The notes under the pieces were generated by a model that saw only the letters and a program-made list of their open reading frames with translations, did not search any database and had not been told where the DNA came from. A stretch of 64,000 bases of DNA from Streptacidiphilus sp. ASG 303 (GTDB taxonomy: Bacteria; Actinomycetota; Actinomycetes; Streptomycetales; Streptomycetaceae): positions 124,001 to 188,000 of the forward strand of contig NZ_JAJLRA010000003.1 of the NCBI RefSeq assembly GCF_020991365.1. The letters are read 5' to 3'. Shown here in pieces: positions 45,070 through 55,181 of the stretch. Position 1 is the first letter of the stretch; each line of letters starts with the position of its first letter. A program made the translations under genes and the position numbers.

Positions 45070-46371
45070 TCACCCGGCGTCGGAGGCCGGGGCGGCGCCC
45101 GGGCCGGAGACCGGGGCGGTGCCCGGACCGGAGACCGGGACAGAAGCCGGAACGGCGGCCGGGAGCGGGATCGGCCGGTCCTCCAGGGCGGCGGCCATGA
45201 CCTCGGGGAAGCGGTCGGGCGTGCAGGCGAAGGCGGGCACGCCGAGGGCGGCCAGCCCCGCGGCGTGCTCCCGGTCGTACTCCGGGGCGCCCTCGTCCGA
45301 CAGCGCCAGCAGGGCCACGACCCGCACGCCCGCGGTCTTCATCGCGGCGACCCGGCGCAGGGCCTCCCCGCGGGCGCCGCCGTCGTGGAGGTCGCTGACC
45401 AGGACCACCACGGTGTCGGCGGGCCGGGTGATGCGCGACCGGCAGTAGGCGAGGGCCCGTCCGATGTCCGTACCGCCGCCGAGGCGGGCGGCGAACAGGA
45501 CGTCCACCGGGTCGGCGATCCGGTCGGTGAGGTCCGCCACCGAGGTGTCGAAGACGACCAGCCGGGTGCCGAGGGCGGGCACCGAGGCGAGGACCGCCCC
45601 GAGGACCGCGGCGTGGACGACGGAGGAGGCCATGGACCCCGACTGGTCGATGCAGAGGACGACCTCCTTCCGCACCGCGCCCCGGGCCCGGGCCCGGCCG
45701 ACCAGGTGCTCGGGGACGAGGGTGCCGCCGCCCGGACCGCCGTCGGCGGGCGGCCGGTAGTGCGCGAGGTTGGCCCGGACGGTGCGGTTCCAGTCGATGT
45801 CCCGGTGGCGGGGGCGGCGGGTGGGGGCGCTCCGGTCCAGGGCGTCCCCGACGGCGGTGCGGGTGCGGTGGGAGAGGCGGCGCTCCAGGTCCGCCGCGAC
45901 GGCGCCGACCACGGCGCGGGCCGCCTCCCGGGCGGCGTCCGGCAGGGCGTGCCGCAGGGAGATGAGGGTGGCGGCCAGGTGGACGTCCGGTTCGACCGCG
46001 GCCAGCATCTCGGGCTCCAGCAGCAGCCGGGAGAGTCCCAGCCTCTCGATGGCGTCCCGCTGCATCACCTGCACGACCGTGCCCGGGAAGTACTCCCGGA
46101 TGTCTCCCAGCCAGCGGGCGACCTGCGGCGCCGACGCGCCGAGACCCGCCCCGCGGGCGCCACCGCGGCCGGCGACGGCCGGATCCCGGCCGTCGCTGCG
46201 GTAGAGGGCGCCCAGCGCGCGGTCCATGGCGGCGTCCCGGCCGACGAGGCCGCGGCCGGTGCCGTCCCGGTCGCCGCCCAGGACCAGCCGCCAGCGGCGC
46301 AGCCGCTCCTCGTCGGCGGTGGCATCCGGGGCGGAGGGCCCGGGGAGGGGGAGCGGAGGCGGTGCGGTCAT
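45070..46371 (-). CDS. VWA-domain protein of a MoxR/VWA/DUF5682 gene set
   Basis: A 433-residue protein. A helical N-terminal half (about 1-230) contains RTRTAVGDALDRS and RPRHRDIDWNRTVRANL. The C-terminal von Willebrand A domain has the metal site D242-x-S244-x-S246 (CIDQSGSMASS), GGGTDIGRAL (Thr301) and LVSDLHDGG with the third Asp. A complete MIDAS suggests Mg2+-dependent partner binding. Such VWA proteins work with the MoxR AAA+ ATPase of the same operon, here after DUF5682. Start ATG 46371. It is separated from DUF5682 by 322 bp of G-rich sequence, so it may have its own promoter. Confidence 0.87.
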   Translation of the reverse strand: MTAPPPLPLPGPSAPDATADEERLRRWRLVLGGDRDGTGRGLVGRDAAMDRALGALYRSDGRDPAVAGRGGARGAGLGASAPQVARWLGDIREYFPGTVVQVMQRDAIERLGLSRLLLEPEMLAAVEPDVHLAATLISLRHALPDAAREAARAVVGAVAADLERRLSHRTRTAVGDALDRSAPTRRPRHRDIDWNRTVRANLAHYRPPADGGPGGGTLVPEHLVGRARARGAVRKEVVLCIDQSGSMASSVVHAAVLGAVLASVPALGTRLVVFDTSVADLTDRIADPVDVLFAARLGGGTDIGRALAYCRSRITRPADTVVVLVSDLHDGGARGEALRRVAAMKTAGVRVVALLALSDEGAPEYDREHAAGLAALGVPAFACTPDRFPEVMAAALEDRPIPLPAAVPASVPVSGPGTAPVSGPGAAPASDAG

Positions 46372-46693: not shown

Positions 46694-49207
46694 TCACGGG
46701 CCCCTCGGGGTGGCGCGTGCGGCCGAGGTGCCCGGGGCGGGGGCGCGTGCGGGTGGTGCGTCCGGGGCGTCCGGCCCCGCGGGGTCCTCCGGGGCGCCGG
46801 GGCTGCCCGGACCGGGGAGGCCGAGCAGCAGGGCGAGGACCGGAAGGACGGCGTCCGCCCGCGCGTGGTCCGGCTCCGGGGCGAAGCCCGGGGCGGCGCT
46901 GCCGGAGCCGCCGGGGAACCGGGGGCCGGCGGGCGCGCCCGCGCGGGTGGAGCGGACCCGTGCCCCGACGGCGTGCCGGACCCCGGCCTCGAACCCGGAG
47001 AAGGTGCGGCGCAGCAGCGGCAGCACCTCGGTGAAGGCGTCGTGGGGCACGGCGGCGAGCCAGTCGTCGAGCAGGCCGAGCAGCCGGTCGTCGTGGACCA
47101 GGAGCATGCCGCCGCCGGACAGGAAGCCCTCGGCCCAGTCCGCGGCGTCGGCCGGACCGGACGCGGTGGTGAGGGCCAGGCCCATGTGCCGGGCCGCCTC
47201 CTCGACGGGGAGCGCACCGTCGTCGAGGAGCAGCCGGACGGCGCGGCCGCGCAGCAGACCGGGCACGCCGGCGGTCCGCTCCCCCGGCTGCCCGCCGGCC
47301 AGCGACCGCAGGGCGGCGGCCCAGCGGTCGCGGAGGCCGCGGGACCCCCCTTCGTCGAGCAGCGCCACCGCGGCGTGCACGGCGTCGAGGCGGGCCCGCA
47401 CGGCCTCGGCGGCGTCCCTGCCCAGTCCGGTGCAGGCCGGGGGCAGGCCGACGCAGATCCGCACCGCCAGCCCCTCGGCGACGCCGCGCAGCGCGCCCGC
47501 GTCCGTGCCCCGGACGTCGCCGTACCGGAGGGCCCGCGCCAGGGCGGGGAGCGCCTCGGCCAGGTGGGCGGTGTCCGTGTCGAGGGCCGCCCGGTCGGCG
47601 ACGGCCCTCATGACGGAGGGGAGGGCGCCGGGCAGGTCGGCGAGCAGGCACGTCTCGGCGAGGGCCGTCAGGTCGGCGAGGGCGGACGCCCGGGCGGCGG
47701 TGTCGCGGGCGCGGGCCTCCGCGGCGGCGGCGACGGTGGTGCCCCAGGGTGCGGCCTCGACGACGCGGGCGGCCAGACCGGGGTCCCAGCGCAGGCGCCA
47801 GGACTCGCGGAAGGTGCCGGTGCCCGCGACGGTGGAGGCGGTGGGTTCGCCCCACGGGACGCCGAGGAGCAGGAGCCGGTGCAGCAGCCGGCTGCGGGCC
47901 GCGTCGGTGCCGCCCCGCAGGTCGAGGTCGAGGTGGCGCTCGGCGGCCTCGGGGCGCAGGCGCAGGGTGCGCTGCAGGCGGGTGAGGTCCCGCTGCAGCG
48001 GCACGGCGGGGGCGGTGTCCGGGACCCTGCCCACGGCGTCGCCGACCACCAGGCGTTCACGGACCGGTGCGAGGGCGGCCTCGGCGCCGTCGCCCAGGAC
48101 GGCCCGGACGGCGTCGAGCGTCTCGGTGAGGCCCGCCAGGGGGCGGCCGCGCAGGGCGGCGAGGGTCTCGGCGAGCCGCACGGCCTCGATGACGTGGGCC
48201 GGGGAGACCGGGTGCCCCGCCTCGCGGAGCAGGGCGGCGGCCCGGGTCGTCCAACGGGCGACGGGCCGGTCGGGTGCGGTGAAGAGGTGGTGGTACCAGC
48301 CGGGCGAGGCGACGCCGGCGCCGTACCCGCTGTGCCGGGCGAGGCGGCGGTGGGTCCAGGGCACCCAGGTGGTCTCCGTGCGGACCCTCCGGGGCAGGGA
48401 CCGGAGCAGCCCGCGGTCGTGCGCCGCGGTCGGCATGCGCTCCAGGGCGGGGACGTGCCAGGCGCCGCAGACCACGGCGATCCGGGTGTGCCCGGCGCGG
48501 CGGGCCGCCCGGATCTGCTGCCGCATGCAGGCCTCGCGCAGCGCGTCGTCGCGGGTGCCGCCGGCTGCCGGGGCGGCTTCCCCGGAGGCGGGTTCACGCA
48601 GTGCGGCCATGGCCTCGGCGACGGCGCGGAAGGGGGCGAACGGGTCGTCCCCGCCGCCGCGGCCGCCGGGCCCGCGGTGCTCGACGACGTCCTCCCACCA
48701 CCGCTCGGGGTCGTCGTGCCCGGCGGCCCGGGCCAGGGCGGCGATGGGGTCGGACGCGACGGGGATCCCGGCACCGGACGGGGGGCGGGGGCCGTCGGGG
48801 GAGCCGGGCGGGGCGTCACCGGGGGGTGCCCCGCCCGGCTCCCCCTGCCCCTCCCGTTCCCGTTCCCGCGCCAGGGCGAAGACGTGGCCGGCGGGGAGGT
48901 CGATGAAGCGGACGGGCGTGCCGCGCCCCAGCGCGTGGCGGAGGGCCACCCACTCCGGCGAGAAGCAGGCGAACGGCCAGAAGGCGGCCCGCCCCGGTTC
49001 GTCCGCCGGGTGAGCCAGCAGCGCGACCGGCGGGACCATGTCCGCGTCGGCCGCGAGCGCCAGGATCGGGTCGGCCTCCGGCGGTCCCTCGACGAGGACC
49101 GCGTCGGGCTCCAGTGCGGCCAGGGCGGCGGCCACCGCACGGGCCGAACCGGGCCCGTGGTGCCGCACGCCGAGCACCGCGGTGGCGGGGAGGCCGGCCG
49201 CGGCCAC
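46694..49207 (-). CDS. DUF5682 family protein (TraB/TIKI-like motifs)
   Basis: An 837-residue protein I place in DUF5682, known as a companion of MoxR and VWA genes. The N-terminus has GVRHHGPGS (residues 13-21) and LVEGPPEAD (38-46). A second His motif, GAWHVPAL (248-255), follows a CMRQQI segment. The paired His motifs and the early acidic motif resemble the TraB/PrgY/TIKI fold, some members of which are metalloproteases; that comparison is my inference. The C-terminal 500 residues are helical and Leu/Ala-rich. GTG 49207 directly abuts the MoxR stop (TGAGTG), so translation is coupled. Confidence 0.82.
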   Translation of the reverse strand: MAAAGLPATAVLGVRHHGPGSARAVAAALAALEPDAVLVEGPPEADPILALAADADMVPPVALLAHPADEPGRAAFWPFACFSPEWVALRHALGRGTPVRFIDLPAGHVFALAREREREGQGEPGGAPPGDAPPGSPDGPRPPSGAGIPVASDPIAALARAAGHDDPERWWEDVVEHRGPGGRGGGDDPFAPFRAVAEAMAALREPASGEAAPAAGGTRDDALREACMRQQIRAARRAGHTRIAVVCGAWHVPALERMPTAAHDRGLLRSLPRRVRTETTWVPWTHRRLARHSGYGAGVASPGWYHHLFTAPDRPVARWTTRAAALLREAGHPVSPAHVIEAVRLAETLAALRGRPLAGLTETLDAVRAVLGDGAEAALAPVRERLVVGDAVGRVPDTAPAVPLQRDLTRLQRTLRLRPEAAERHLDLDLRGGTDAARSRLLHRLLLLGVPWGEPTASTVAGTGTFRESWRLRWDPGLAARVVEAAPWGTTVAAAAEARARDTAARASALADLTALAETCLLADLPGALPSVMRAVADRAALDTDTAHLAEALPALARALRYGDVRGTDAGALRGVAEGLAVRICVGLPPACTGLGRDAAEAVRARLDAVHAAVALLDEGGSRGLRDRWAAALRSLAGGQPGERTAGVPGLLRGRAVRLLLDDGALPVEEAARHMGLALTTASGPADAADWAEGFLSGGGMLLVHDDRLLGLLDDWLAAVPHDAFTEVLPLLRRTFSGFEAGVRHAVGARVRSTRAGAPAGPRFPGGSGSAAPGFAPEPDHARADAVLPVLALLLGLPGPGSPGAPEDPAGPDAPDAPPARAPAPGTSAARATPRGP

Positions 49208-50383
49208 TCAGCCCACCTCCCGGCAGGCGCGGTAGAAGTCCTTCCAGCCGTCGCGCTCGCGCACGACGCCCTCCAGGTACTCCTGCCAGACCACCGGGTC
49301 GGAGACCGGGTCCCGGACCACGGCGCCGCGGATGCCCGCGGCCACGTCGGCGGCGCGCAGCACGCCGTCCCCGAAGTGGGCGGCCAGGGCGATCCCGGCG
49401 GTCACCACGGAGATCGCCTCGGCGGTGGAGAGGGTTCCGGTGGGCGACCTGACCCGGCTGCGGCCGTCGGCGGTGACGCCGTCGCGCAGCTCCCGGAAGA
49501 CGGTGACGACCCGCCGGATCTCCTCGGCGCCGCGCGGCGGCTCGGGCAGGTCGAGGGAGCGGCCGAGCGCGCGGACCCGCCGGGTCACGATGTCGACCTC
49601 GTCCTCGACGGAGGCGGGCAGCGGCAGCACCACCGTGTTGAAGCGGCGGCGCAGGGCGCCGGAGAGCTCGTTGACGCCCCGGTCGCGGTCGTTGGCGGTG
49701 GCCACCAGGTTGAAGCCGCGCACCGCGCGGGTCTCGCCGCCCAGCTCGGGGACGGGCAGCGTCTTCTCGGAGAGGACCGTGATGAGGCTGTCCTGCACGT
49801 CGGCCGGCATGCGGGTGAGCTCCTCGATGCGGGCGACCTTCCCCTCGGCCATGGCCCGCATCACCGGGGAGGGCACCAGGGCGTCCCGGCCGGGGCCGTC
49901 GGCGAGCAGCCTGGCGTAGTTCCACCCGTAGCGGACGGCCTCCTCCGGCGTGCCCGCGGTCCCCTGGACCAGCAGGGTGGAGTCGCCGCTGACGGCGGCC
50001 GCCAGGTGCTCGGAGACCCAGGTCTTGGCGGTGCCGGGCACCCCGAGCAGCAGCAGGGCCCGGTCGGTGGCCAGCGTGGCGACGGCGACCTCGACGACGC
50101 GGCGCGGGCCGACGTACTTGGGGCTGACGACGGTGCCGTCCGGCAGTTCGCCGCCCAGCAGGTAGGTGGCGACCGCCCACGGCGAGAGCAGCCAGCGCTC
50201 GGGGCGGGGCCGGTCGTCGCAGGCCGCCAGTGCCGCCAGCTCGTCCGCGAAGGCCTCCTCCGCGTGGGGGCGCAGCACCGGGGCCGCCCCCGGGCCGGAG
50301 GCGCCGGTGGCACCGGAGGCGCCGGGCACACCGGTACGGGGTGCGGCGGGAGGGGTGGCGGGGGCGTCGGTCGGCGCGGCCAT
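49208..50383 (-). CDS. MoxR family AAA+ ATPase
   Basis: A 391-residue AAA+ ATPase, first gene of MoxR-DUF5682-VWA. Walker A is GVPGTAKT (114-121); a Walker-B-like ARIEELTRM is around 184-192. Sensor-1 Asn lies in VATANDRDRG (about 231), and arginine finger residues in ALRRRFNT (about 243-250). SVVTAGIALAAHFG fits the C-terminal lid. MoxR proteins act as chaperone-like ATPases with VWA partners. Start ATG 50383 has AAGGAG 6 nt upstream. A DNA-damage-type promoter motif lies 160 nt upstream. Confidence 0.93.
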   Translation of the reverse strand: MAAPTDAPATPPAAPRTGVPGASGATGASGPGAAPVLRPHAEEAFADELAALAACDDRPRPERWLLSPWAVATYLLGGELPDGTVVSPKYVGPRRVVEVAVATLATDRALLLLGVPGTAKTWVSEHLAAAVSGDSTLLVQGTAGTPEEAVRYGWNYARLLADGPGRDALVPSPVMRAMAEGKVARIEELTRMPADVQDSLITVLSEKTLPVPELGGETRAVRGFNLVATANDRDRGVNELSGALRRRFNTVVLPLPASVEDEVDIVTRRVRALGRSLDLPEPPRGAEEIRRVVTVFRELRDGVTADGRSRVRSPTGTLSTAEAISVVTAGIALAAHFGDGVLRAADVAAGIRGAVVRDPVSDPVVWQEYLEGVVRERDGWKDFYRACREVG

Positions 50384-50949
50384 GGGGACTCCTTCCAGCG
50401 GGCCGCCGGGCGCACCTGTGGCAGGGCAGCGTGCGGCGGGGGTCGGTTCGGAGAACGTCGGCAGAGGGCGGTCCACGGTCAGGGCGGGACCGCCGGGCGC
50501 GGGGACGCTCCCCTCCGCCGGCTTCCTCGGCCTGCGCGATCCACCATGCACCCCGCCACTGACAATGCCGCCCGGCCCTGGGGGCGGGGGCTCCCGGAGC
50601 GGCGCCGTCGCCTCGGCCCCACCGGGGCCGCCGGGCGGGGGCGGGTGCCCGTGGGAGGGCTCGGCGCCCGGTCGGGGCCGGGCGTGCCGGCTCGGGCGTC
50701 CACGCCGGAGCCGGCCGACGCGGCGACGGCCGGGCACGGCGGAGCCGGACAGCCGAGGCGGCGGCCGCCTGTCCGGAGAGTGCTCTTCCCGGGCCGGGAC
50801 CCGGCCGGGCTCGGTCCCGGTCAGTCCGCCCGGGACGCACGAGGAGGCCGGCAGCCGGAGTCGGCGCGGGGAAGGCGGCCGCAGGACGCAACCGGCCGGG
50901 ACCCGGGGGCGCAGCCCGGCCTCCCCCGGGGCCCGGCCGCGCCCCGCGG
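50384..50949. other. 566-bp region between galE and the MoxR operon
   Basis: It carries the PafBC-type promoter motif at 50543-50565. The rest is Pro/Arg/Gly-coding-like high-GC sequence open in several frames, with no recognised gene. The leader from that promoter to the MoxR start would be about 150 nt. Confidence 0.55.
50543..50565 (-). promoter_or_regulatory. RecA-independent DNA-damage (PafBC-type) promoter motif upstream of MoxR
   Basis: On the minus strand, TTGTCAGTG (50565-50557), 8 nt, then CATGGT (50548-50543). The published actinobacterial consensus is TTGTCRGTG-N8-TANNNT. Only the first base of the -10 differs. The flank GGCGGCATTGTCAGTGGCGG is shared, with one mismatch, with the promoter at 52109. 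Confidence 0.72.
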
Positions 50950-51942
50950 CTACGGGGCGAGCAGCCGGTCGCGGATCTCGGCCCAGCGCAGCGAGTCGCG
51001 GATCCCCTCGACGATGCCGAACTGCGGCTCCCACCCGAGCAGCCGCCCGGCCCGGCCGCTGCGGGTGAAGGCGCCGGCCACGTCGCCCGGGCGCGGGCCC
51101 GTCCCGACGACCGCGACCGGGGTGTCGACCACGCTGTTGAAGGCGGTGACCAGCTCGGTGACGGTGGTGCCCGTACCGGTGCCGAGGTTGATCACCGAGG
51201 AGCGGGCGCCGCCCAGTGCGGCCTCGAACCTCCGGAGCGCGGCCACGTGCGCGGTGGCCAGGTCCCAGACGTGGACGTAGTCGCGGATCCCCGAGCCGTC
51301 ACGGGTGGGCCAGTCGGTGCCGGTGATCCGGAACGGCACACCCTCCTCGTGGGCCTCGATGAGCTTGCCGAGTGCGTGGCTGGGCCGGCGCAGCTGCAGT
51401 CCGGTGCGCATCCGGGGGTCGGCGCCGATCGGGTTGAAGTAGCGCAGCGAGAGGATCCGGATCGGCTGGGTGGCGGCGATGTCGGCGAACATGCCCTCGC
51501 AGACCGCCTTGGTGCGCGCGTAGGGGCTCTGCGGGGCGATCCCGGAGTCCTCGTCCACGCTGAAGTCCTCCCCCGGCAGGTAGATCGAGCCGGAGGAGCT
51601 GAAGATCATCTTTTGGCAGCCGTTGCGGATCAGGTGGCCGACGAAGTCCAGGCTCTTGGCCACGTTCGCCCGGTAGTAGCCGAGCGGGTCGCCGACCGAG
51701 TCGGGGACCACGATCAGCGCCGCGCAGTGGACGACCGCCTCGATCTCCGGGTGCTCGGCGAAGACCCGGTCCACCAGGGGGCCGTCCGCGATGTCGCCCT
51801 GGTAGAAGGGGCGGCCTTCGGTGAACTCCCGCCGGCCCGTCACCAGGCTGTCCAGGATCACCGGGGTGATGCCCGCGTCCAGGCAGGCGGAGGCGACGGT
51901 GCTGCCGATGTATCCGGCTCCACCCGAGATGAGTATCTTCAT
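50950..51942 (-). CDS. galE: UDP-glucose 4-epimerase
   Basis: A 330-residue extended-SDR epimerase interconverting UDP-glucose and UDP-galactose. Features: GGAGYIGS (7-14), HCAALIVVPDSV, the catalytic FSSSGSIY segment and YARTK (YxxxK), RYFNPIGAD, and WPTRDGSGIRDYVHVWDLA. It fits the actinobacterial GalE type. Start ATG 51942. It lies between the two arms of the AAA/VWA gene set and is divergent from the SWIM-family gene. Its role there is unclear; it may be a bystander. Confidence 0.93.
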   Translation of the reverse strand: MKILISGGAGYIGSTVASACLDAGITPVILDSLVTGRREFTEGRPFYQGDIADGPLVDRVFAEHPEIEAVVHCAALIVVPDSVGDPLGYYRANVAKSLDFVGHLIRNGCQKMIFSSSGSIYLPGEDFSVDEDSGIAPQSPYARTKAVCEGMFADIAATQPIRILSLRYFNPIGADPRMRTGLQLRRPSHALGKLIEAHEEGVPFRITGTDWPTRDGSGIRDYVHVWDLATAHVAALRRFEAALGGARSSVINLGTGTGTTVTELVTAFNSVVDTPVAVVGTGPRPGDVAGAFTRSGRAGRLLGWEPQFGIVEGIRDSLRWAEIRDRLLAP

Positions 51943-52108
51943 GCCCGCTCGTGGACCTCTCTCTCTGAGTGCCGACCGGGCGGTCGGCGCCGTGAGCCTA
52001 GCCCGGTCGGCGCGGCGGCGCGGGGCTCCGGCCGACCTGGGCGGATCGCCCGGCTTTCCGCCGGCGGGGCGGTGCGGCCGGGGAGCGGGCCGCGGCGGTC
52101 GGGCGGCG

Positions 52109-52131
52109 TTGTCAGTGGCGGCGCCTACCGT
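52109..52131 (+). promoter_or_regulatory. Consensus PafBC-type DNA-damage promoter, leaderless, before the SWIM-family gene
   Basis: TTGTCAGTG (52109-52117), GCGGCGCC, TACCGT (52126-52131): an exact match to TTGTCRGTG-N8-TANNNT. The ATG at 52139 follows after 7 nt, so the transcript is expected to begin at about the start codon. Confidence 0.82.
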
Positions 52132-52138
52132 CGGGGGC

Positions 52139-53304
52139 ATGTCGGTGACTTCGGACGACGGACGGCGGGTGCCGGAGCGGATCCTCGCGGCCGCACCCGG
52201 CGAGGATCCGTGCGGGGCTGCGGCGTCCCTCGCGTCGCCCGCGTCCCGGCCGGAGGCGGCTGCCGGGGCGGGGGCCACCGGGGCGCAGGCCGCCCGGCGC
52301 GCCGGGCGGCGGGCGGACCGGGCCGCGGCGGGCGGCGGGCGGACCGGGCCGCGGCGGGGGCGGCCGAGCTGCGCCTGCGGCTCGCCGACGGGGTGCGCCG
52401 CGGCCTCGCCGGGGAGGAGGGGACGGGCCGCAGTGCCTGGGACGGCGTGGCCGCACGCATGGTCGACGCCCAGGCCCCCGGGCTGGCCTCGCGGGTCCGG
52501 GAGCTGGCGGCGGTGCCCGCGTCCGGCCCGGACTGGCCGGGCCGGCTGCTGGAGGAGTACGCCCTGCTCGACCTGCTCGCCGCCGCCTACGGGCGTGTGG
52601 ACCGGCTGCCCGCGCCGCTCGCCGCGACGGTGCGCTCCCGCGTCGGTTTCACGGTGGAGGCCGTGGAGGTGCTGCGCACGGTCCCGGCGGTCCGCGACCG
52701 GTGGCTGGTGCTGGGGGCGCACGACACGGCCGACGAACGGCTCGCCACCCGCCGCCTGTGGCTGCGGGGCACCGCCACCGGCCGCATCGCCCTGCTGCTC
52801 TCCCACGGCCGGGCGGGCCGGGCGGCGGACCTGTCCCTGCCGGTGGGGCTGGTGGTGGAGGCCGACCTGGCGTACCACCCGGGCGCACGGCCGCTGCGCG
52901 CCGTCCTCGGCCCGGGGGCGGGGCCGCCCGCTCCGCCGGTGCCCGGCGGCGGGGTCCCGCCGGGCGTCACCGTGGGCGGGGCGATGGCGGAGTACGGCGC
53001 CGCGCTGGCCGGGGACCCGTGGCTGGACTCCTGGCCCGTGGTGCTCGCGGACGTGGTGCCCGTGCCCGGCCCGGAGGGGTGGCGGCTGGCCGACGCCGAC
53101 GGCGACGCCGACTGCGGGGACGGGGAGGGCGGCGGGTGGATACCGGTGCACGCGCCGGGCTCCGCGGCGGGTCCGGGGCTGTGGCGGCTGGCCGCCGTCT
53201 CGGGCGGGCGGCCGGTCACCGTCTTCGGCGAGTGCGGTCACCGCGGCTTCGCCCCCGTCACCGTCTGGGACGCGGACGGCATCCCGACGGGGCTGCGCAC
53301 GTGA
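52139..53304 (+). pseudogene. Frameshifted gene: C-terminal region of a SWIM zinc-finger family protein
   Basis: From ATG 52139 (leaderless promoter just upstream) the frame reads MSVTSDDGRRVPERILAAAPG..., reaches GRRADRAAAG and is then thrown off by a perfect 26-bp duplication (52303-52354). Removing one copy joins it exactly to AAELRLRLADGVRRGL and on through MVDAQAPGLASRVREL, DRWLVLGAHDTADERLATRRLWLRG, AYHPGARPLRAVLG and GECGHRGFAPVTVWD, ending at TGA 53304. That C-terminal part is what follows the zinc finger in Streptomyces SWIM-family proteins as I recall them. The CxC...CxH SWIM signature itself is absent here. If intact it would be about 379 residues. DUF5691 follows. Confidence 0.66.
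52303..52354. repeat. Perfect 26-bp tandem duplication causing a frameshift
   Basis: The unit begins CGGGCGGCGGGCGGACCGGG and ends CCGCGG; the copies are 52303-52328 and 52329-52354. As 26 is not a multiple of three, it shifts the frame of the SWIM-family gene, and deletion of one copy restores it. Confidence 0.95.
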
Positions 53305-53414: not shown

Positions 53415-55181
53415 GTGGCAGGACGGCACCAGGAGCCGCGGCCCGACGGCTGGGAGGAGCTCGTGGCCACGGCGCTGCTCGGGACCGGTCGTCGGGCGCT
53501 GCCCGGCACCGGGGGCGCACCCGTCCTCTCCCGGGCCGCGGGGGCCGCGGCCGCCGCACGGACCGACCCCGCCGCCGCGCTGCTCGCGCTGGCCGCCCTC
53601 GGCACCGTGCACCGCCGTGCCGGGCTGCGGCCGGCGCCCCGCGGGGCCCTCCCCGGGGCGGCCCCGGACGACCCGCGCCCGCCGCTGCCCGGGGCCGCCG
53701 CGACACGCCTCGGCATGCTGCTCACGGAGCGGGGCGGGCCGGCCGGACGTGCGGGGCCGGCCGGGTCCGGCACCCCGGCGGGCCTCCCCGAGCTGCTGCC
53801 GCAGTGGCTGTACGCCGCCCGCGCACGGGGTTTCCGGGTGCCGGCGCCGCTGGTGCCCGCGCTGCTGGACGCCGCCCGGTCCCGCAGCGAGCTGCGCCCG
53901 GACGCGGTGGCCCTGGCGGGCCCGCTCGGCCGCTGGCTGGCGGAGCGCAACCCCGACTGGCGGTTCGTGCTGCGGATGGTACCGGGCGCGGGCAGGGCGG
54001 CGGGGGCTGCCGGGACGGCCGGACCACCGCAGGGGCCGGGAGGACAGCGGCCGCAGGGGCATGCCTCCTCGCCGCCCGCCCCCGGCAGCGGGACGGCGGA
54101 CGGCGACGGCGACGGGACGGCGGACGGCGACGGGATCTGGGAGGAGGGCCTGTTCGCCGAGCGGGTCACCCACCTCACCCGGCTGCGCCGCAGCGACCCG
54201 GCCGCCGGCCTGCGGCTGCTGCGCTCCACCTGGGCGGCCGAGCGCGCCGAGGACCGGCTGCTCTTCCTGGACGCCCTGCAGGACGGCCTCTCCCCCGACG
54301 ACGAGCCGTTCCTGGAGGCGGCGCTCAACGACCGCAGCAGGAACGTGCGGCTGACGGCCGCCGAACTGCTCTCCGCCCTCACCGGCTCCGCCCTGGCCCG
54401 CCGCATGGCGGAGCGGGCGCGGGCGGCGGTGCGGCTCCGTCGCGGTCCCGGCGGCGAGGTGTTCGCGGTGGAGCCGCCCGCCGCCTGCGACGAGGCGATG
54501 CGGCGGGACGGCATAGCGGAGCACTCCCCCACCGGCCGGGGCGACCGGGCCTGGTGGCTGGGCGAGATCGTGGCGGCGGCGCCGCTCGCGCTGTGGACGG
54601 CGGAGACGGGCCGCACCCCGGAGCAGCTGCTGCCCCTGCCGGTCTCCGACGGCTGGGGCGACGACCTGCGGGAGGCGTGGGCGCGCGCGGCCGTGCGGCA
54701 GAACGACGCGGGCTGGGCGCGGGCGCTGCTGGGACCGCCGCCCCCGCCGGACGAGCGGCCCGGCGGACGCCGCGCGGGGGCGCCGGCGCGGCTGCTGGCC
54801 GTGCTGCCGCCGCCGGAGCGGGCGGCCTGGGCGGCGGCGTTCGTGGACGTGCACGGTCTGGGCGAGGCGTTCCAGATGCTGGGCGCCTGCGCGGTCCCGT
54901 GGACGGCCGGGCTGGGTGCGGCGGTGGTGGGGGCGCTGGAGCGGGCGGCCGGGGCGGGCGCCTACCCCTGGAGCCACAGCGGGGTGCTGGGGATGGCGGA
55001 GCGGGCCCTGGCGCCGGAGGCCGCCGACGGGGTCGAGTCGCTGGCGGCGGCGGGAACGGGCGGGCCCGCGTGGGCGGAGACCTTCGGCCGGCTGGCATGC
55101 ACCCTGCGCTTCCGCGCGGCGATGCTGGCCGAGCTCGGCCCGCTCCCGCCGGACGGGCCGCTCGCGCGGACGGCACGGTGA
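53415..55181 (+). CDS. DUF5691 family protein
   Basis: A 588-residue protein starting at GTG 53415 with GGAGGAGG 6 nt upstream. An alternative GTG 53301 would overlap the preceding TGA in GTGA. The opening WEELVATALLGTGRRALP is typical of DUF5691. The body is helical, with WLAERNPDWRFV, FLEAALNDRSRNVRLTAAELLSAL (HEAT-repeat-like), WWLGEIVAAAPLALW and YPWSHSGVLGMAERAL. In other Streptomyces this gene accompanies SWIM, MoxR, DUF5682 and VWA genes. Function unknown; a scaffold or substrate-binding role is an inference. Confidence 0.82.
   Translation: MAGRHQEPRPDGWEELVATALLGTGRRALPGTGGAPVLSRAAGAAAAARTDPAAALLALAALGTVHRRAGLRPAPRGALPGAAPDDPRPPLPGAAATRLGMLLTERGGPAGRAGPAGSGTPAGLPELLPQWLYAARARGFRVPAPLVPALLDAARSRSELRPDAVALAGPLGRWLAERNPDWRFVLRMVPGAGRAAGAAGTAGPPQGPGGQRPQGHASSPPAPGSGTADGDGDGTADGDGIWEEGLFAERVTHLTRLRRSDPAAGLRLLRSTWAAERAEDRLLFLDALQDGLSPDDEPFLEAALNDRSRNVRLTAAELLSALTGSALARRMAERARAAVRLRRGPGGEVFAVEPPAACDEAMRRDGIAEHSPTGRGDRAWWLGEIVAAAPLALWTAETGRTPEQLLPLPVSDGWGDDLREAWARAAVRQNDAGWARALLGPPPPPDERPGGRRAGAPARLLAVLPPPERAAWAAAFVDVHGLGEAFQMLGACAVPWTAGLGAAVVGALERAAGAGAYPWSHSGVLGMAERALAPEAADGVESLAAAGTGGPAWAETFGRLACTLRFRAAMLAELGPLPPDGPLARTAR

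Follow-up and report, generated by a model that had tools for sequence, protein, structure and literature searches.

In the window, the 64,000-nucleotide stretch of Streptacidiphilus sp. ASG 303 DNA analyzed here, two 23-bp elements are best interpreted as the two sides of a single ancestral divergent promoter, which PafBC would activate after DNA damage, a reading to which we assign a probability of roughly 0.8. One element faces a MoxR-DUF5682-VWA gene set and the other a SWIM-DUF5691 pair, and the genes of both arms very probably belong to the DNA-damage response, judging from the promoter sequences and their counterparts in relatives. The first-pass annotation had tied this gene set to genotoxic stress through a PafBC-type motif; sequence and comparison support that association, as the motif is shared with a regulon of repair genes, is conserved in relatives, and occurs in a genome that encodes pafBC. 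The features concerned are the following, with positions counted from the first letter of the window:

45070..46371, minus strand: VWA (CoxE-like) protein, YehP-like (Pfam PF05762, E=6e-57)
46694..49207, minus strand: DUF5682 protein, YehM-like (Pfam PF18934, E=2e-280; E. coli YehM is of the same family)
49208..50383, minus strand: MoxR-type AAA+ ATPase, YehL-like (Pfam AAA_5, E=1.6e-37)
50543..50565, minus strand: candidate PafBC-type promoter of the MoxR arm (TTGTCAGTG at 50565-50557, 8-nt spacer, -10 CATGGT at 50548-50543)
50950..51942, minus strand: galE-like NAD-dependent epimerase, between the promoter arms (Pfam Epimerase)
52109..52131, plus strand: candidate PafBC-type promoter of the SWIM-DUF5691 arm (TTGTCAGTG at 52109-52117, 8-nt spacer, -10 TACCGT at 52126-52131)
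52139..52141, plus strand: start codon (ATG) of the SWIM-family gene, 8 nt past the -10, where transcription is predicted to begin and the mRNA would be leaderless
52139..53304, plus strand: SWIM-family gene of yehQ type, its conserved body running from about 52369 in another frame
52298..52363, plus strand: tandem repeat with a 26-bp unit (2.6 copies, 95% match), located in the SWIM-family gene at the frame change
53415..55181, plus strand: DUF5691 protein (Pfam PF18944, E=1e-158)

Both elements are correctly oriented, one into the MoxR gene and the other into the SWIM gene. The plus-strand element (TTGTCAGTGGCGGCGCCTACCGT, built as TTGTCAGTG-GCGGCGCC-TACCGT) is an exact match that satisfies the strict TTGTCRGTG, the 8-nt spacer and TANNNT, and the sequence TTGTCAGTG-N8-TACCGT that the first-pass annotation had claimed for this strand is indeed found at 52109-52131. 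The minus-strand element (TTGTCAGTGGCGGGGTGCATGGT, built as TTGTCAGTG-GCGGGGTG-CATGGT) fails the strict consensus: its upstream element and spacing are exact, but its -10 is CATGGT and not TANNNT, a deviation that lies, as had been stated earlier, at the first -10 base alone. We retain the view that the minus arm would work like a PafBC-type promoter despite this non-strict -10. A 20-nt flank, GGCGGC(A/G)TTGTCAGTGGCGG, had also been described as common to the two arms and is present at both. On the MoxR side, the ATG at 50383 has GGAAGGAG upstream and would be preceded by a leader of about 150 nt from the predicted start site. On the SWIM side, a transcription start had been expected at about 52138, and with the ATG at 52139 the mRNA would be leaderless.

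A chance match as the origin of both elements was rejected on the basis of shuffles, control counts and conservation in relatives. The strict pattern was absent from all 100 dinucleotide shuffles of the window, and a scan of the genome (7.0 Mb, 200 contigs) returned 11 strict matches against 0 for a reversed-pattern control; with any base allowed at the first -10 position (NANNNT) the counts were 20 and 2. At this genome-wide density, the chance of a correctly oriented copy falling within a given 250-bp window is about 0.0004. Most of the sampled Streptomycetaceae genomes likewise carry about 3-26 strict copies (16, 26 and 24, for example) against 0-1 in the control. Some of the genome-wide sites are probably chance occurrences, and two strict matches lie inside genes of the opposite strand (L024 and L028).

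Conservation was assessed in 80 loci, retrieved as DUF5682 relatives through protein similarity and mostly from Streptomyces and Kitasatospora. On the MoxR side, NTGTCAGTG-N8-CANNNT lies upstream of the gene in 77/77 loci with a MoxR gene, and wherever a SWIM gene stands opposite (76/76 loci), NTGTC(A/G)GT(G/C)-N8-TANNNT lies upstream of that gene. An exact match to the complete TTGTCRGTG core is seen in 71 of the 77 MoxR promoters and 59 of the 76 SWIM promoters, and the information content is 2.0 bits per core position, whereas it is 0.4-0.5 in the 30 bp upstream. The -10 on the MoxR side is CANNNT in every relative, embedded in a strongly conserved TGGTGCA stretch, and never begins with the consensus T. 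On the SWIM side, an ATG starts 7 or 8 nt past the -10; a first-ATG rule selects it in 65/76 loci, the other 11 containing a preceding ATG triplet within that stretch, and from this conserved spacing a leaderless mRNA is predicted for the SWIM arm. Because these loci are the closest relatives and therefore non-independent, the counts indicate purifying selection within one family and not repeated origin.

The conservation is bounded taxonomically. In other actinobacterial families the genes are collinear, in the order SWIM-DUF5691-MoxR-DUF5682-VWA, in 20 loci (one of them incomplete at its end), and the strict motif precedes the SWIM gene in only 2 of these, both from one genus. Conservation of the motif before orthologous operons therefore holds for the Streptomycetaceae set of 77 and 76 promoters and fails in most of the other families sampled. 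Within Streptomycetaceae itself, the genomes sampled from genera g2 and g5 (G001 and G004) have only about 2 motif copies each genome-wide, and the g5 locus, a collinear operon, has no motif upstream of SWIM or MoxR. PafBC may have been lost in these two genera, or its site may have changed. Since the motif is mostly absent from other families and from the g5 locus, we regard the damage motif at these genes as a family-level trait and not a universal one.

Comparison with relatives also accounts for the unusual layout in the window. In most relatives the two motifs stand back to back, 25-61 bp apart, and within the same genus they form the arms of an inverted repeat (in locus L128, CACTGACAACGCCCCCGG ... 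CCGGGGGCGTTGTCAGTG). No galE was found at any of the 80 related loci, and both same-genus loci keep a compact divergent promoter without it. Given this compact inverted-repeat promoter in the same genus and the absence of galE in relatives, the 20-nt flank is most simply a remnant of the inverted repeat. The first-pass annotation had taken the shared sequences to mean that both arms form one regulon; the motif bears this out, and for the flank an inverted-repeat promoter of the ancestor, split by galE, is a better account than a feature of the regulon in general.

Two further observations concern these divergent gaps (L030-L109). A second conserved element, GCAGGTCR, occurs in 46/61 gaps, compared with about 0.5 in shuffles. 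Where present, it mostly stands 6-7 bp upstream of TTGTC, preceding either the MoxR motif or, in inverted orientation, the SWIM motif. The other regulon promoters that were checked showed no copy upstream, and the element may be a site for another regulator. The gap lengths between the divergent motifs cluster near 26, 37, 49 and 61, with a period of about 11.6. Odd as this spacing is, it gives p=0.10 on unique lengths and a poor fit to the B-DNA period of 10.5, and we make no claim of helical phasing.

The genes that share the motif, called near each site by a codon-usage script and annotated with Pfam, point to its function. Strict sites in the window's own genome lie upstream of recA, polA, a second dnaN (a dnaN-like paralogue) and a SigG/SigJ-like ECF sigma gene with a SnoaL domain, with others before an ABC exporter, a DUF4241 gene and an HU gene (about 350 bp away); one near-miss site precedes a DUF6504 gene. 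Sites with one mismatch are found before uvrB, ung, the rpsF-ssb operon, dnaX, a WGR-domain gene, xthA (exonuclease III-like) and a mycothiol-transferase/DinB-like gene, the identities of ung, dnaX, ssb and uvrB resting partly on reading of the protein sequences and on orthologous Pfam matches in a second genome. That second genome, which is complete and belongs to the same genus, has strict sites before recA, uvrB, ung, a gene for an AlkZ-like glycosylase, rpsF-ssb, WGR and DUF4132 genes, a second SWIM gene, and the MoxR/SWIM gene set studied here. At locus L135, from a same-genus genome, uvrB is preceded by two tandem copies of TTGTCAGTG spaced about 21 bp apart. A genome scan had been suggested to determine whether recA, lexA, uvr and ruv genes share the motif: recA does, as does uvrB with one mismatch, and lexA and the ruv genes were not among the matches. 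By their content, the motif-bearing genes constitute a predicted DNA-damage regulon.

The same gene list bears on the possibility that the elements are ordinary housekeeping promoters whose link to damage is incidental. The -10 sequence TANNNT is common to housekeeping promoters, and recA, polA and ssb are expressed also in undamaged cells. However, TTGTCRGTG is not a -35 consensus, neither a sigma-70-type promoter nor an intrinsic terminator was detected in 50300-52300, the motif matches are concentrated on repair and replication genes, and PMC2375139 describes the S. rimosus recA promoter, with the same element (TTGTCAGTGGCN6TAGggT), as UV-inducible. We consider a housekeeping role improbable. 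Still harder to sustain is the idea that LexA, through the SOS response, is the main control of the gene set and the PafBC-type motif a secondary one. Streptomyces does have a LexA regulon, and recA carries a LexA box as well as the motif (PMC9380542). Against this, both window promoters lack a LexA box (best scores of 4-5 mismatches in 12, versus 2 at recA and dnaE2), and the intergenic DNA of relatives scores little better than background for such a box; LexA control of this kind would be very surprising.

The activator itself is most plausibly PafBC. The genome encodes pafB and pafC, both WYL/WCX proteins, close to pafA, and PafC matches the PafC-specific helix-turn-helix family (HTH_PafC, E=6e-32). 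The window element agrees in sequence, spacing and -10 with the mycobacterial consensus, tTGTCRgtg-8 nt-TannnT (PMC5656591). These facts argue against the alternative that the motif marks a Streptomycetaceae damage regulon read by another WYL activator or by an alternative sigma factor. That alternative draws on the negative outcome of an initial search by Stratton et al., which did not recover the M. smegmatis PafBC motif as conserved in S. venezuelae, the 2022 study leaving a PafBC-type response in Streptomyces an open question (PMC9380542). It also draws on the mycobacterial WYL regulator SiwR, which responds to genotoxic stress (PMC10693628), and on the ECF sigma gene that is itself among the motif targets; the literature search found no test of PafBC on this motif in Streptomyces. 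A reader other than PafBC is thus unlikely, and it is the rival to which we give the most weight.

With PafBC as the preferred activator, a mechanism can be proposed in which PafBC binding, damage induction, PafBC dependence, operon structure and any role in repair are all predictions from sequence. The WYL domains of PafBC would sense damage by binding single-stranded DNA that arises from it, in keeping with the report that sigma adaptation by PafBC is set off by ssDNA (PMC11804915). PafBC would then allow the housekeeping RNA polymerase to start at promoters with TTGTCRGTG about 26 bp upstream and a -10, the upstream element replacing the normal -35. One arm would transcribe MoxR-DUF5682-VWA, and the other SWIM-DUF5691 as a leaderless mRNA. 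The gene products would most likely form a MoxR/VWA remodelling complex active during or after DNA damage, for which damaged DNA or stalled protein-DNA complexes are a conceivable substrate, and this complex might act together with WGR and DUF4132 proteins.

The set comprises a MoxR AAA+ ATPase, a DUF5682 protein, a VWA_CoxE protein and a SWIM protein, the first three recognized by Pfam in the window and the SWIM member in relatives. MoxR AAA+ proteins are thought to be chaperones that mature specific complexes, often together with VWA proteins, and their exact in vivo roles, those of the YehL subfamily included, have been described as unclear (PMC3893208). The literature search returned nothing on DUF5682, and yehL/M/P/Q appeared only in genome papers. 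A DUF5682 model (pLDDT 80) gave no convincing PDB match, its N-terminal segment matching its own family only, while DUF5691 (pLDDT 82) was modeled as all-helical with weak ARM/HEAT-like Foldseek matches, so that a repeat-like helical fold is predicted. The SWIM-family gene of the window has no Pfam SWIM match, lacks the N-terminal CSCPSRK-PCKH zinc finger that is present in relatives, and shifts frame around the 26-bp tandem repeat; it has either decayed or been misassembled in GC-rich repeats. The plus-arm SWIM gene is probably non-functional in this genome, and its promoter is still perfect despite the disruption. As the SWIM gene is apparently damaged here, only the MoxR arm may still yield its full product.

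A wider link among these families is suggested by E. coli, where yehF (WGR), yehI (DUF4132), yehL (MoxR), yehM (DUF5682), yehP (VWA) and yehQ (SWIM) occur in one stretch. The same WGR, DUF4132, MoxR AAA_5, DUF5682, VWA_CoxE and SWIM families are present in Streptomycetaceae; unlike the yehF-yehQ cluster, they are scattered there over several loci that one promoter motif links. No DUF5691 domain was detected in E. coli YehQ. By hand count in Streptomycetaceae outside g2 and g5, the motif lies close upstream of standalone WGR genes in 10/10 cases and of short DUF4132 genes in 6/6, and accompanies two of seven fused WGR-DUF4132 genes. Locus L241 (1541-14301) holds a second cluster, in which the motif is followed by a short DUF4132 gene, a gene encoding 1669 aa, a MoxR-like gene, a long DUF5682 gene and one more gene; it reads as a separate copy of the system under a promoter of the same type. 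Clustering in the phylum of E. coli, taken with a common motif in Streptomycetaceae, points toward one common process. We tentatively suggest, as a possibility we would not yet favor, that YehL/M/P/Q together with WGR and DUF4132 proteins form a widespread machine for coping with DNA damage by way of a MoxR/VWA remodelling complex, whose targets might be DNA lesions, blocked forks or damaged protein-DNA complexes.

A gene set whose function is obscure and whose range extends from E. coli (yehLMPQ) to Streptomyces thereby gains a concrete, testable candidate role in the damage response. The finding bears on whether Streptomyces has a working damage response independent of RecA/LexA, a matter left open in PMC9380542, and the conserved divergent promoter offers a ready reporter for such a response. 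Membership in a defence system was rejected, as no convincing family was identified and PADLOC gave a single weak match. The MoxR-vWA ternary conflict systems (Kaur et al. 2020) resemble the set in pairing a MoxR ATPase with a VWA protein, and the window MoxR scores 26.7 bits against the bpMoxR profile, just under the cut-off of 27. A ternary conflict system was likewise rejected: Pfam and PADLOC detected no VMAP, iSTAND, FtsH or beta-propeller component and no effectors, and DUF5682, DUF5691, SWIM and WGR are absent from the text of Kaur et al. 2020.

The Streptomyces damage regulon itself is a known prediction, made by 2008. PMC2375139 gives 67 predicted genes with related motifs in S. coelicolor, among which repair genes are abundant, and its SIGffRid TGTCAGT set (S. 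coelicolor, S. avermitilis) already contained ung, uvrB, polA, dnaN, dnaE and others; that set and the S. rimosus recA promoter share the motif of the window elements. The main-text section on these predictions does not mention the MoxR/VWA/SWIM set, which may appear in the paper's supplementary table. That table aside, and within the literature covered, the addition of the MoxR-DUF5682-VWA and SWIM-DUF5691 arms, with the WGR and DUF4132 genes, appears to be new. Among the closest known parallels are the PafBC-dependent, RecA-independent ('RecA-NDp') promoters of mycobacteria, one-directional promoters that precede recA and repair genes (PMC5656591) and with which the window elements have the upstream element, spacing and -10 in common, in a genome that encodes PafBC too. 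In contrast to these mycobacterial promoters, the elements described here occur as two copies facing apart, with CANNNT as the -10 of the MoxR copy and a predicted leaderless transcript from the SWIM copy.
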